Positions 54,190 through 59,232 of a stretch of 64,000 nt of DNA are shown piece by piece. The notes beneath the pieces are model-generated. The model saw nothing but the letters and a program-made list of their open reading frames with translations. It was not told where the DNA came from and did not search any database. Both the position numbers and the translations under genes were made by a program. The first letter of the stretch is position 1. The number at the start of each line of letters is the position of its first letter. This DNA comes from Gemmatimonadaceae bacterium. GTDB lineage: Bacteria; Gemmatimonadota; Gemmatimonadetes; Gemmatimonadales; Gemmatimonadaceae. Location: the NCBI GenBank assembly GCA_014379355.1, contig JACMLX010000083.1, positions 1 to 64,000 on the forward strand. The letters are read 5' to 3'.

Positions 54190-55764
54190 ATGTCGCCGTT
54201 TCAGCCGATCCTGATCGCGATAGCGATCGCCACGCTCGTGATCGCGATCACTGCGCTTGCGCGGCGATTGCCGATCCCATCCCCGATCCTGCAAGTCATC
54301 GCGGGCCTCGGTCTTGGATTCATTCCGGGAATGCCGGTGCCGCAGCTGGAACCGGACCTGGTGTTCTTCGTGTTCCTTCCGCCGATCCTGTGGGCCGCGG
54401 CGTTTTTCACATCGGTGCGTGAGTTCAAGCAGAATCTGCGTCCCATCAGCCTGCTCGCGGTGGGGCTGGTGTTCGTCACGACAGCCGTCGTTGCGATTGC
54501 GGCGCGCGCGCTCCTGCCTGGGCTGCCATGGGCCGTGGCCGTCGCGATCGGCGCGATCGTCTCACCACCGGACGCCGTGGCCGCGGCAGCCGTGGTGTCA
54601 CGATTGCCCGTGCCACGTCGCGTGGTGGTGATTCTGGAAGGCGAGAGCCTCGTCAACGATGCCGCGGCACTCGTGCTCTTTCGCACGGCGGTGGCAGCCG
54701 CGGTGACCGGCGTGTTCAGTCTCGGCGAAGCGGTCGTTCGATTCTTCATCGATGCGGGTGTCGGGGCGCTGATCGGCATCGCAGTGGGCTGGTGCGTCGT
54801 GCGAGTCGCGCGATGGACGAAAGACTCACTCGCCGAGACACTGCTCACGATCGCGGCACCGTACCTCGCGTGGGTCGCCGCCGAGTCGATTCACGTGTCC
54901 GCCGTGCTCGCATGTGTCGCCGGCGGTGTGTACGTGCGACAGCATTTCTCCACCGTGATCTCCCCGATGTCGCGCCTGCAGTCGCGGGCCGTGTGGGACC
55001 TGATCGTGTTCATCATCAACGCGCTGGTCTTCCTCATTCTCGGCCTGGAGTTCGGCCCGATCGTCAAGCAGGTTCCGGTCGGGACGCTGCGATCGGTGCT
55101 GCTCGCCGGCGTCGCGATCAGCATGGTGGCGATCGTGGTGCGACTCGCGTGGGTGCCCGTGGCCACATGGCTGCCGCGCTGGATGAGTGCCGACGTGCGA
55201 CGCCGCGATCCCGTGCCGAACCCGAAGGCCGTCGCACTCGTCGCGTGGACCGGCATGCGCGGCATCGTGTCACTCGCCTCGGCACTCGCCTTGCCGATCG
55301 CCCTCCGGAACGGGCTGCCGTTCCCCTATCGCTCGGAGATCATCCTCATCACGATGTGCGTGATCATGATCACGCTCGTGGTCCAGGGGTTGACGCTGAC
55401 GCCGGTCATCAAGTGGTTCGATTTCGCACCCGATCACGCGCATCACGAGGAGGAGCGGCACGCGCGTCGCGAAGCCATGCGGCGCGGGTCGGAGGCACTC
55501 GAGGATCTGGCGCGCGAATCGTGGGCCGATCAGGCGGAGGTGGAGCGGATTCGCCGTGAACTGCGCGACCGCATGCAGCATCACGAGCGGAATGCCTCCG
55601 ATCTCTCACATCGCAAGCTGCGCACGGGCGTGCTCAAGGCTGAGCGTCGCATGCTCGTACGCCTGCGAAACGAAGGCGCGATTTCCGACGAGACGCTGCG
55701 CCTGCTCGAGGAAGAACTGGATCACGAAGCCGTGCGTGTCGGTGCCGGGGACGTGCGCGGCTAG
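54190..55764 (+). CDS. Na+/H+ antiporter, CPA1 family
   Basis: Start MSPFQPILIAIAIATL; FFVFLPPILWAAAF, ILEGESLVNDAAALVLF motifs. Confidence 0.92.
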   Translation: MSPFQPILIAIAIATLVIAITALARRLPIPSPILQVIAGLGLGFIPGMPVPQLEPDLVFFVFLPPILWAAAFFTSVREFKQNLRPISLLAVGLVFVTTAVVAIAARALLPGLPWAVAVAIGAIVSPPDAVAAAAVVSRLPVPRRVVVILEGESLVNDAAALVLFRTAVAAAVTGVFSLGEAVVRFFIDAGVGALIGIAVGWCVVRVARWTKDSLAETLLTIAAPYLAWVAAESIHVSAVLACVAGGVYVRQHFSTVISPMSRLQSRAVWDLIVFIINALVFLILGLEFGPIVKQVPVGTLRSVLLAGVAISMVAIVVRLAWVPVATWLPRWMSADVRRRDPVPNPKAVALVAWTGMRGIVSLASALALPIALRNGLPFPYRSEIILITMCVIMITLVVQGLTLTPVIKWFDFAPDHAHHEEERHARREAMRRGSEALEDLARESWADQAEVERIRRELRDRMQHHERNASDLSHRKLRTGVLKAERRMLVRLRNEGAISDETLRLLEEELDHEAVRVGAGDVRG

Positions 55765-55771
55765 CGCGCCG

Positions 55772-56809
55772 CTACTGTCGACCCGCAGGCATGTCAGGAC
55801 CGGTGCGCTCGAGCGCCGACGGCGTGCTCGTCGTGCCGTCGGGCAACGTCTCGAGGCGATCGAGACGCTCGACGTCGATGGTGATCACGCTGTCCGGCGA
55901 GCTCACGAAAACGCTCGCGAACTTTGCATCCCAGCGGATTTCATCCCACAGATACGAGCTGCGCGCGGTCACGCGTGTCGAGAATGTCTCCTCGTGCGCG
56001 TTGATCGAGATGAACAGCTCCGCCTCCGCCTCGCGCAACATCGCCGGGGTGAAGTTCCGCAGCGGGCTGCTGTCTGTGATCGGATGCACGACGGTCCAGT
56101 GCAGCGAGAAGAACTGCACCGAATCCAGTTCAAGGTCGAGCTTGTAGAATTCCCTTCCCCTTACGCCGTTGTGCATCTCGAACATGGCGAGGTTCGCGAT
56201 CACGTGCACGTCGCTCAGCTCACTCGGCTGGGTATTGACGATGCGGAACATCAGGCCACGGCCGTCTTCGTACGGCGCGATCACGGCCGATTCGCTGAAG
56301 CGCACCCGCATGCGCGGCCGGATCAGTCGCGCGATGAGCAGTCCGGCCACCACGATCACGCTCAGTGGCCCGAGCAGGGCCTCGAAGATGACCAGCCAGT
56401 GCGCCGTGGCACCGACGGCGTGCATGGGCGTCGTATCGGAGGTGGTGAAGACGGCGAGGCTGAAACTGAACGCCGAGAGGAACGGGTCGGTCATGCCCGC
56501 CAGGTCCTGTCCGGCGATGGCCCCCGTGCCAAGCGCGATGTACCCCAGCGTGAAACACCCGTTGAGCAGCATCACGCCGCCGAGCGACCAACCGAGGAAG
56601 GTGAGCCAGGTGGTGTTGAGCGCGCCGAGGTACGCGCGCTCGAGGCGCTGCGTTCCGAGCCCGAATTTACGGCTGTTCGGCGACCCATCACGATTCAGGA
56701 ATCGACCGCGCGCCTGCTGCCCGACCACACGTCCGAACCCCAGTTCGTCCTGATCGACATGCGGGGATTCGTCACTCGTTCCGTCAGCGGTCACGTGGGT
56801 CTCGCGCAA
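55772..56809 (-). CDS. Inward-rectifier potassium channel (KirBac)-like protein with altered filter
   Basis: FFSLHWTVVHPITDSSPL, HEETFSTRVTARSSYLWDEIRWDAKFASVF match the KirBac cytoplasmic domain; pore reads FSFSLAVFTTSDTTPMH. Confidence 0.88.
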   Translation of the reverse strand: MRETHVTADGTSDESPHVDQDELGFGRVVGQQARGRFLNRDGSPNSRKFGLGTQRLERAYLGALNTTWLTFLGWSLGGVMLLNGCFTLGYIALGTGAIAGQDLAGMTDPFLSAFSFSLAVFTTSDTTPMHAVGATAHWLVIFEALLGPLSVIVVAGLLIARLIRPRMRVRFSESAVIAPYEDGRGLMFRIVNTQPSELSDVHVIANLAMFEMHNGVRGREFYKLDLELDSVQFFSLHWTVVHPITDSSPLRNFTPAMLREAEAELFISINAHEETFSTRVTARSSYLWDEIRWDAKFASVFVSSPDSVITIDVERLDRLETLPDGTTSTPSALERTGPDMPAGRQ

Positions 56810-56870: not shown

Positions 56871-58964
56871 TCACGGCAGCGCGAACGCCACGTACGTGCC
56901 ACCGCTCGGCGCGCCGTTCTTTCCGCCGCCGCACGCGATCACGATGTACTGCTTCCCGTTCACCATGTAGGTGGACGGTGTCGCATTGCCTGCGGCCGGC
57001 AGCGTGGTCTCCCAGAGCAGCGCACCGGTCGCCTTGTCGTAGGCGCGGAACTTGTTGTCGTACGTCGTGGCGCCGATGAGCAGCAAGCCATTCTGCGTCA
57101 CGATTGCGCCGCCGTAACTGTCGGTTCCGGTGTTCTTCACGCCTTGTGCCGTGAGCTTCGGATATTCACCGAACGGGATCGACCACGCCGACTTGCCGGT
57201 GTTGAGGTCGATCGCGTTGAGCGTGCCCCATGGCGGCTTGATGCCAGGATACCCTTCATGATCGAGGAAGATGTCGAAGAAGGCCGTGCGATACTTGAGG
57301 AAGTGCGGGCTTTTCTCCATCGCGCGCGTGGACGCCACCTTGCCCGTAGTCAGGTATTCGACGATCTCCTTCACCGCCGACCCGTCCATTGCGCCACCGA
57401 ACGCCGGCATCCGCCCATTCCCTTCCTTGATCATCTGCGTGATCTGCTCCACCGTGCGCCGCTGCGCGATGTCGACCAGACTCGGACCGCCGGCGCCGCC
57501 CTGCCGATTGTCGCCGTGACAGCCCGCACAGTTGGCGGCGTAGAGCGACTCGTCGCTCCGCGGCACGAGCTTGAGCAACCACGCCATCTCATTCGAGTTC
57601 ACGTACAGCAGTCCCGTACCTGGATCGAAGGCCGGTCCACCCCATTCACCGCCGCCGTCCACGCCGGGGAAGATGATCGTGCCCTTGGTCACATTCGGTG
57701 CTTCGTAGGGATCGGTCGGATCGTACTGCTCGAACGTCTTGAGCGCGGCGGCGTGTGCTTCCGGCGTGCGCGTCGTCAGGTCGTTCTTCGTCAGTGACTG
57801 CCGCGCGAACGGCAGCGGCAGCGTCGGGAAGCGCTGCGTCGCCGATGGGCGCTCACCGTCCAGCGCGACCGTCGGCATCCTGCGTTCCTCGACCGGGAAC
57901 ATCGGCGTGCCGGCTGCACGATCGAACAGCCACACATGCCCCGTCTTCGTGATCTGCGCCACGGCGTCCACGGGGGCACCATTGCGCTGCACCGTGACGA
58001 GCATCGGCGCCGCCGGCAGGTCACGATCCCACAGATCGTGCTTCAGCACCTGATAGTGCCAGAGGTGCTTGCCTGTGCGGGCATCGAGCGCAATGACGCT
58101 GTTGGCATACAGGTTGTCGCCGACCCGATTTGCGCCGTAGAAATCGTACGACGCCGAACCAGTGGCGGCGAAGAGCATGCCGCGCTTCGGATCGATCGTC
58201 ACACCGGCCCATGCATTCGCACCGCCCGCGACTTTCCATGCGTCGGGCGGCCATGTCTCGTAGCCTGCTTCACCGGGATGCGGGATCGTGTGAAAACTCC
58301 ACCGCAACGCGCCTGTCTTCAGGTCGAACGCACGAATGTCTCCCGGTGCGCTCGGCAACTGTTCCGGCACGGTGCTGCCCATGATGAGCAGGTCCTCGAA
58401 CACCACGCCCGGCGTACTCGCGCTCACTGACAATTCCTTCGCCGGCCGTCCGAGACCCTCGCGCAGATCCACCCATCCACTGTCGTTGCCCCAGCCGGCG
58501 ATCTGTGCGCCGGTCTTGCGATCGAGCGCGAACAGTTTGTAGCGGTAGTTGAAGATCACGCGATCACCGGTCACGACGACACCGCGGTGGCGGAACCGCG
58601 ACGCCGGTGGCTGTCCGTGATTCGGATCGAAGAGCCAGAGCTGTTTTCCGGTCGTCGCATCCAGCGCGAAGACATGCATCTTCGGCGTCGTGGCATAGAG
58701 CACACCGTCGATGACGATCGGATTGGCTTGCATCTCCGATCCCTTGAACTCATCGTGCGTCTCGAACGTCCAGGCCACCTGTAGCGACTTCACGTTCGCC
58801 GGCGTGATCTGGCTCAGCGTGGTGAAATGGGTGTGATCCGTGCTGCCACCGTACACCGGCCAGTCGACGGACTCGCGCGTCGGCGTGGCCGATTTCTGGC
58901 AGGCACTGAGCACGACGGCGAGCGTCGTGAGACGCGCCAGGGAAGCAGCAGTTCGCAAACGCAT
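56871..58964 (-). CDS. PQQ-dependent dehydrogenase with internal cytochrome c domain, lipoprotein
   Basis: Start MRLRTAASLARLTTLAVVLSAC; beta-propeller PQQ repeats; CAGCH heme motif in LYAANCAGCHGDNRQGGAGG. Confidence 0.9.
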   Translation of the reverse strand: MRLRTAASLARLTTLAVVLSACQKSATPTRESVDWPVYGGSTDHTHFTTLSQITPANVKSLQVAWTFETHDEFKGSEMQANPIVIDGVLYATTPKMHVFALDATTGKQLWLFDPNHGQPPASRFRHRGVVVTGDRVIFNYRYKLFALDRKTGAQIAGWGNDSGWVDLREGLGRPAKELSVSASTPGVVFEDLLIMGSTVPEQLPSAPGDIRAFDLKTGALRWSFHTIPHPGEAGYETWPPDAWKVAGGANAWAGVTIDPKRGMLFAATGSASYDFYGANRVGDNLYANSVIALDARTGKHLWHYQVLKHDLWDRDLPAAPMLVTVQRNGAPVDAVAQITKTGHVWLFDRAAGTPMFPVEERRMPTVALDGERPSATQRFPTLPLPFARQSLTKNDLTTRTPEAHAAALKTFEQYDPTDPYEAPNVTKGTIIFPGVDGGGEWGGPAFDPGTGLLYVNSNEMAWLLKLVPRSDESLYAANCAGCHGDNRQGGAGGPSLVDIAQRRTVEQITQMIKEGNGRMPAFGGAMDGSAVKEIVEYLTTGKVASTRAMEKSPHFLKYRTAFFDIFLDHEGYPGIKPPWGTLNAIDLNTGKSAWSIPFGEYPKLTAQGVKNTGTDSYGGAIVTQNGLLLIGATTYDNKFRAYDKATGALLWETTLPAAGNATPSTYMVNGKQYIVIACGGGKNGAPSGGTYVAFALP

Positions 58965-59232
58965 CGCGCAGTGTCGGCAGAGGTGAGGTGGCCGGCACAA
59001 TCTGGCGGGCCGGGCCGCGGAACAGTACGCGAGTCACCCCGGCAGTGATATTCTTTCGGAATACACGAGCTCGGCAGTGCCGCTGAGACCGATCGCGACA
59101 TACCATCCCTTGTGACTCTGCGGCACGATCCCCGCAGAGGAGTGTCTCACACTGCGCTCGCGACGCTGCGATACGACCGACAGAAGCGGCCTTTCGGCCA
59201 TCGTTTCCACTCCGACAGCCTTTCCGTACGGC

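Follow-up and report, generated by a model that had tools for sequence, protein, structure and literature searches.

In the window (the whole stretch of 64,000 nucleotides analysed here, from the Gemmatimonadaceae contig JACMLX010000083.1), we detected a NirBac2-type channel gene on the minus strand (55772..56809), identified from the open reading frame list, the IRK_C domain, phmmer, clade membership, AlphaFold and Foldseek. The reading frame is intact and encodes 345 amino acids counted from a TTG at 56809; the start codon, this TTG or a GTG at 56794 (codon 6), is uncertain because no Shine-Dalgarno sequence is visible and the GTG offers an alternative. Facing it on the plus strand is a CPA1 Na+/H+ antiporter gene with the motif GESLVND (54190..55764), recognised by Pfam, by its co-occurrence with the channel and by NCBIfam (TIGR00831; 356.3 bits against a curated cut-off of 279.6). 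The first-pass annotation had described the two genes as convergent and 8 bp apart; the orientation is right and the spacing is not, as 7 bp lie between the two stop codons (55765..55771).

Two further genes flank the pair. A luciferase-like monooxygenase (TIGR03858; 53115-54164, plus strand) stops 25 bp short of the antiporter start and is possibly transcribed together with it; this gene and an aminotransferase neighbour recur in the same genus only. A PQQ-dependent dehydrogenase with a cytochrome c domain (56871-59000, minus strand) is encoded on the channel's strand, 61 bp upstream of it. It recurs in about nine genomes besides that of the window. In another genus it precedes the NirBac2 gene in eight genomes; G017 has it close to the antiporter, and G022 close to a canonical KirBac. 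Elsewhere in the same genome, the sole Ion_trans_2 match (contig C6, L164:1063-1698) carries a filter-like NFSFFGYSD, with GYS for GYG. TrkH gave no match in this genome, which is 89.6% complete, so that absent systems mean little.

The only Pfam match of the channel is the Kir-type cytoplasmic domain IRK_C (PF17655; 75.8 bits against a cut-off of 22.5), which covers residues 169-325 (55835..56305); the transmembrane Pfam models did not match its pore. With the window channel as query, phmmer matched KirBac1.1 (4e-28) and KirBac3.1 (5e-39 over residues 34-316), the latter with a gapless P-loop ('VFTTSDTTPMHAVG' over 'TMATIGYGKLIPIG'). An AlphaFold2 monomer built from a 76-row alignment has the KirBac fold (pLDDT 90.6), and the best PDB matches in Foldseek are all KirBac3.1 (E 4e-29), with its 2TM/P-loop architecture. 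The model delimits, all on the minus strand, a slide helix (residues 54-65, 56615..56650), TM1 (68-92, 56534..56608), a pore helix (109-121, 56447..56485) in which S117 and F121 are conserved, and TM2 (134-163, 56321..56410). The pore helix, the filter (122-128) and TM2 reach pLDDT values of about 96-98, and the filter stretch is non-helical. Domain match, phmmer alignment to KirBac3.1, model and structural matches all bear out the earlier description of the protein as KirBac-like.

Where KirBac3.1 and KirBac1.1 have TIGYG, the window channel has TSDTT (residues 123-127, 56429..56443, minus strand). Coordinates and ungapped KirBac alignments agree with the first-pass annotation on this replacement, and the Asp of TSDTT occupies the position of the first GYG glycine. 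The window channel shares with these two KirBacs the fold, slide helix, TM1, pore helix, TM2 and cytoplasmic domain but differs from them in the filter and in the pore helix, where their Glu/Gln is Ala/Gly. It has neither the TxGYG nor the TxGFG by which KirBac K+ channels are recognised, and the absence of TxGYG is a feature of the NirBac channels. A GYG hidden elsewhere in the pore, or a shifted alignment, was considered and rejected; the pore of the window channel holds no other GYG, and the loops are equally long in all rows.

We searched 179 genomes of the family and 395 of the phylum Gemmatimonadota, many of them draft MAGs. Scores fell into two peaks, with relatives at 453 bits or more and other KirBacs at 309 bits or less, split contig fragments aside. 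In a tree built with canonical KirBacs and without the filter columns, the 45 Gemmatimonadota homologues group as a single clade (SH-aLRT 100). None of them has GYG, whereas all 32 canonical KirBac homologues have GYG or GFG. A contig scan across genomes yielded four loci, all in Gemmatimonadota, and a search of plasmids for relatives returned nothing nearer than distant Synechocystis and Caballeronia channels; these searches sampled little beyond the phylum. Within the clade the filter is TTGTG in 13 members and TTGTD in seven, and 21 further variants occur. Position 78 is aromatic in none of the 45; the second glycine position is Gly in 23 members and Asp in 13. At the first glycine position, Asp is restricted among the 45 to the genus of the window (TSDTT and TSDAS), and Ser is found in two other members. 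The difference between TSDTT and TSDAS among close relatives fits both a loosely constrained pore and tuning. The filter of the window channel is the most altered among those compared here.

One clade member, from genome G023, is judged by its filter TTGTD to be very probably NirBac2.1 of Gemmatimonas aurantiaca T-27. If so, the window channel lies in the same SH-aLRT 100 clade as NirBac2.1 and is 57% identical to it; both have the Kir architecture and a non-TxGYG filter of unchanged length, and they differ in that TTGTD retains the first glycine and TSDTT does not. By sequence, then, the window channel is assigned to the known NirBac2 branch and its type is not new. The NirBac kind was described by Zubcevic et al. 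2015 (PMC4607889), so that the window channel, put forward earlier as an unexplained oddity, falls within a published group. That study gives the filter of NirBac2.1 (YP_002762692) as TTGTD and did not take the protein further, its expression being problematic and too poor for study. Functional data come from NirBac1.1 and NirBac1.2 of Anaeromyxobacter, the only NirBacs tested, which in liposomes are monovalent cation channels with no or nearly no selectivity; they carry 22Na+ non-selectively, are activated by POPG and inhibited by acid pH, and NirBac1.2 is not permeable to Ca2+ (PMC4607889). No functional study of NirBac channels after this one turned up in a literature search. Like the window channel, NirBac1.1 and NirBac1.2 are Kir-domain channels without TxGYG; their P-loop is reported to be wholly unrelated to that of KirBac, whereas the window P-loop aligns without gaps, NirBac1 being compared here by its description. 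TbIRK of Trypanosoma brucei is likewise a Kir-family protein that lacks TxGYG, but it has a GGYVG filter, resides in a eukaryotic organelle and prefers K+ more than 7-fold (PMC5429665). The loss of K+ selectivity proposed by the first-pass annotation is therefore probable, given a clade without GYG and non-selective NirBac1 channels, but it does not follow from the sequence alone, since TbIRK prefers K+ without TxGYG.

The antiporter, which the first-pass annotation mentioned in passing and correctly, carries more weight than was implied there, as it accompanies the channel in all 46 channel genomes. With orthologues defined at 518 bits or more (the next homologues reach at most 391), antiporter and channel occur in the identical 46 genomes and neither occurs alone; these are 43 of the 179 family genomes and three more from the phylum sample, with G074 counted through a channel fragment at a contig end. 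GESLVND, whose Asn-Asp pair belongs to the ion site in CPA1 antiporters, is invariant in 42 antiporter orthologues. Where a single contig covers both gene ends, as in 44 genomes, the two genes are always convergent, with a gap between -17 and 907 bp and a median of about 20. In G009 they were placed, by inference, on two facing contig ends, and in G239 and G322 the antiporter was located on matching contig ends. A natural split is seen in G106 (C5, 342.6-363.2 kb), where 20.6 kb of other genes separate the pair and the two genes still face each other. This antiporter was absent from the surroundings of canonical KirBacs in 16 loci (about 6 kb on either side), and no terminator or promoter stood out as shared. 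The main text of the NirBac paper (PMC4607889) does not mention an antiporter, and the titles and abstract openings returned by a literature search indicated no pairing of a KirBac with one. Counted by genus from the search results, at least seven genera mix carriers and non-carriers, which implies repeated joint gain or loss of the two genes, and this patchy presence within genera means that the pair is dispensable. The divergence of the two proteins is correlated (Mantel r 0.81, reached in 0 of 2000 permutations), as is expected when two genes travel together.

That the NirBac2-type channel and the convergent CPA1 antiporter form a two-gene cation-cycle module has, in our judgement, about an even chance. 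The channel would be a homotetrameric 2TM protein with a Kir domain, whose filter would lack the stacked carbonyl sites of TxGYG, and by analogy with the tested NirBacs it probably conducts monovalent cations with little discrimination between K+ and Na+. It would admit Na+ (and K+) down the gradient; the antiporter would expel the entering cation (predicted to be Na+ or K+) in exchange for H+, and together they may acidify the cytoplasm when the external pH is high, or relieve the cell of a cation load. Relaxed K+ selectivity would be no defect in such a cycle, which would require it. The acid inhibition of the tested NirBacs would, again by analogy, fit a channel that is open at high pH. Alkaliphilic Bacillus run a cycle of this kind with Nav channels and cation/proton antiporters, and in B. 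alcalophilus the non-selective NsvBa feeds antiporters (PMC4225499). The cycle of NsvBa/Nav with Mrp-type antiporters resembles the proposed module in that passive cation entry feeds cation/proton antiport; it differs in relying on an unrelated 6TM channel and on other antiporters, and no convergent gene pair is reported for it in the part of PMC4225499 considered here. We regard it as a tentative reading, somewhat short of an even chance, that NirBac2 and its antiporter are an obligate two-gene module, built on a 2TM/Kir-domain channel and equivalent to the Nav/Mrp cycle; the filter would then have been released from K+ selectivity because the job of the channel is to feed the antiporter.

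Adjacency by itself does not prove joint function, since convergent genes do not share a transcript. The same co-occurrence, which is not independent of phylogeny, would also arise if both genes were transferred or lost together as a block. The channel could be a non-selective NirBac with a passenger antiporter that has no joint function with it, the two being co-inherited as one block or because overlapping 3' ends do not easily come apart. Patchy presence suits block transfer or loss, and 11 pairs share a 4-bp overlap of stop codons. On the other side, the genes of most pairs are free of overlap, the two remain adjacent in two families at 54-68% protein identity although nearly all the other genes around them differ, and the split genes of G106 have both been retained. 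We consider this explanation possible but unlikely. A further reading keeps the channel and changes its ion: the replaced filter would still be selective, either for K+ by an unusual geometry or for Na+ or Ca2+ by a ring that acidic side chains form. In 16 of the 45 members one of the two GYG glycine positions carries Asp or Glu, for which the tree requires five or more changes; this would suit an acidic ring, and TbIRK is a precedent for K+ selectivity without TxGYG (PMC5429665). The acid varies in position, however, and is absent from 29 of the 45, NirBac1.2 does not pass Ca2+, and both tested NirBacs discriminate little or not at all among monovalent cations, which makes a selective filter rather improbable.

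Whether the protein conducts at all bears on the non-channel role raised by the first-pass annotation, here framed as a membrane-anchored Kir-domain sensor, for instance a regulator of the antiporter. Such a role would suit the constant antiporter neighbour and a filter that evolves at about the protein average in the clade (relative rate 1.01, against 0.41 in KirBac) above a cytoplasmic domain that evolves more slowly than average. Against it stand low pN/pS ratios in pooled close pairs (0.12 in the pore helix, 0.17 in the filter), a P-loop of constant length across the clade, the retention of the filter threonine (T75, 42/45) and the first glycine (G77, 41/45) in more than 90% of members, and the conduction of the related NirBac1 channels. 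With pore helix, filter threonine and the fold as a whole maintained by purifying selection, we do not favour a non-channel role and think it very unlikely. KirBac filter residues are invariant as a rule, which would favour an ordinary KirBac damaged by decay in a single strain or by a sequencing error. This is contradicted by the 45-member clade without GYG, the intact reading frame, and dN/dS values well below 1 (0.02-0.18 in the closest pairs, about 0.28 between the window channel and G002). Sequencing error in particular is ruled out by G002, a same-genus orthologue with 68% identity to the window protein, whose filter TSDAS has Asp at the same site. The comparison of homologues that had been suggested for separating selection from decay thus gave no sign of decay, and we rejected this candidate as extremely improbable.

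What is new at this locus is the constant antiporter partner, which offers a first clue to the cellular job of NirBac2 channels. What Kir-domain channels do for bacteria in vivo has been described as unclear (PMC4607889), and the exact co-occurrence with the antiporter makes the role of NirBac2 testable. The clade also provides a natural series of filters on one scaffold (TTGTG, TTGTD, TTGTE, TTSTA, TSDTT, TSDAS and others), which is useful for learning how K+ selectivity gets lost.
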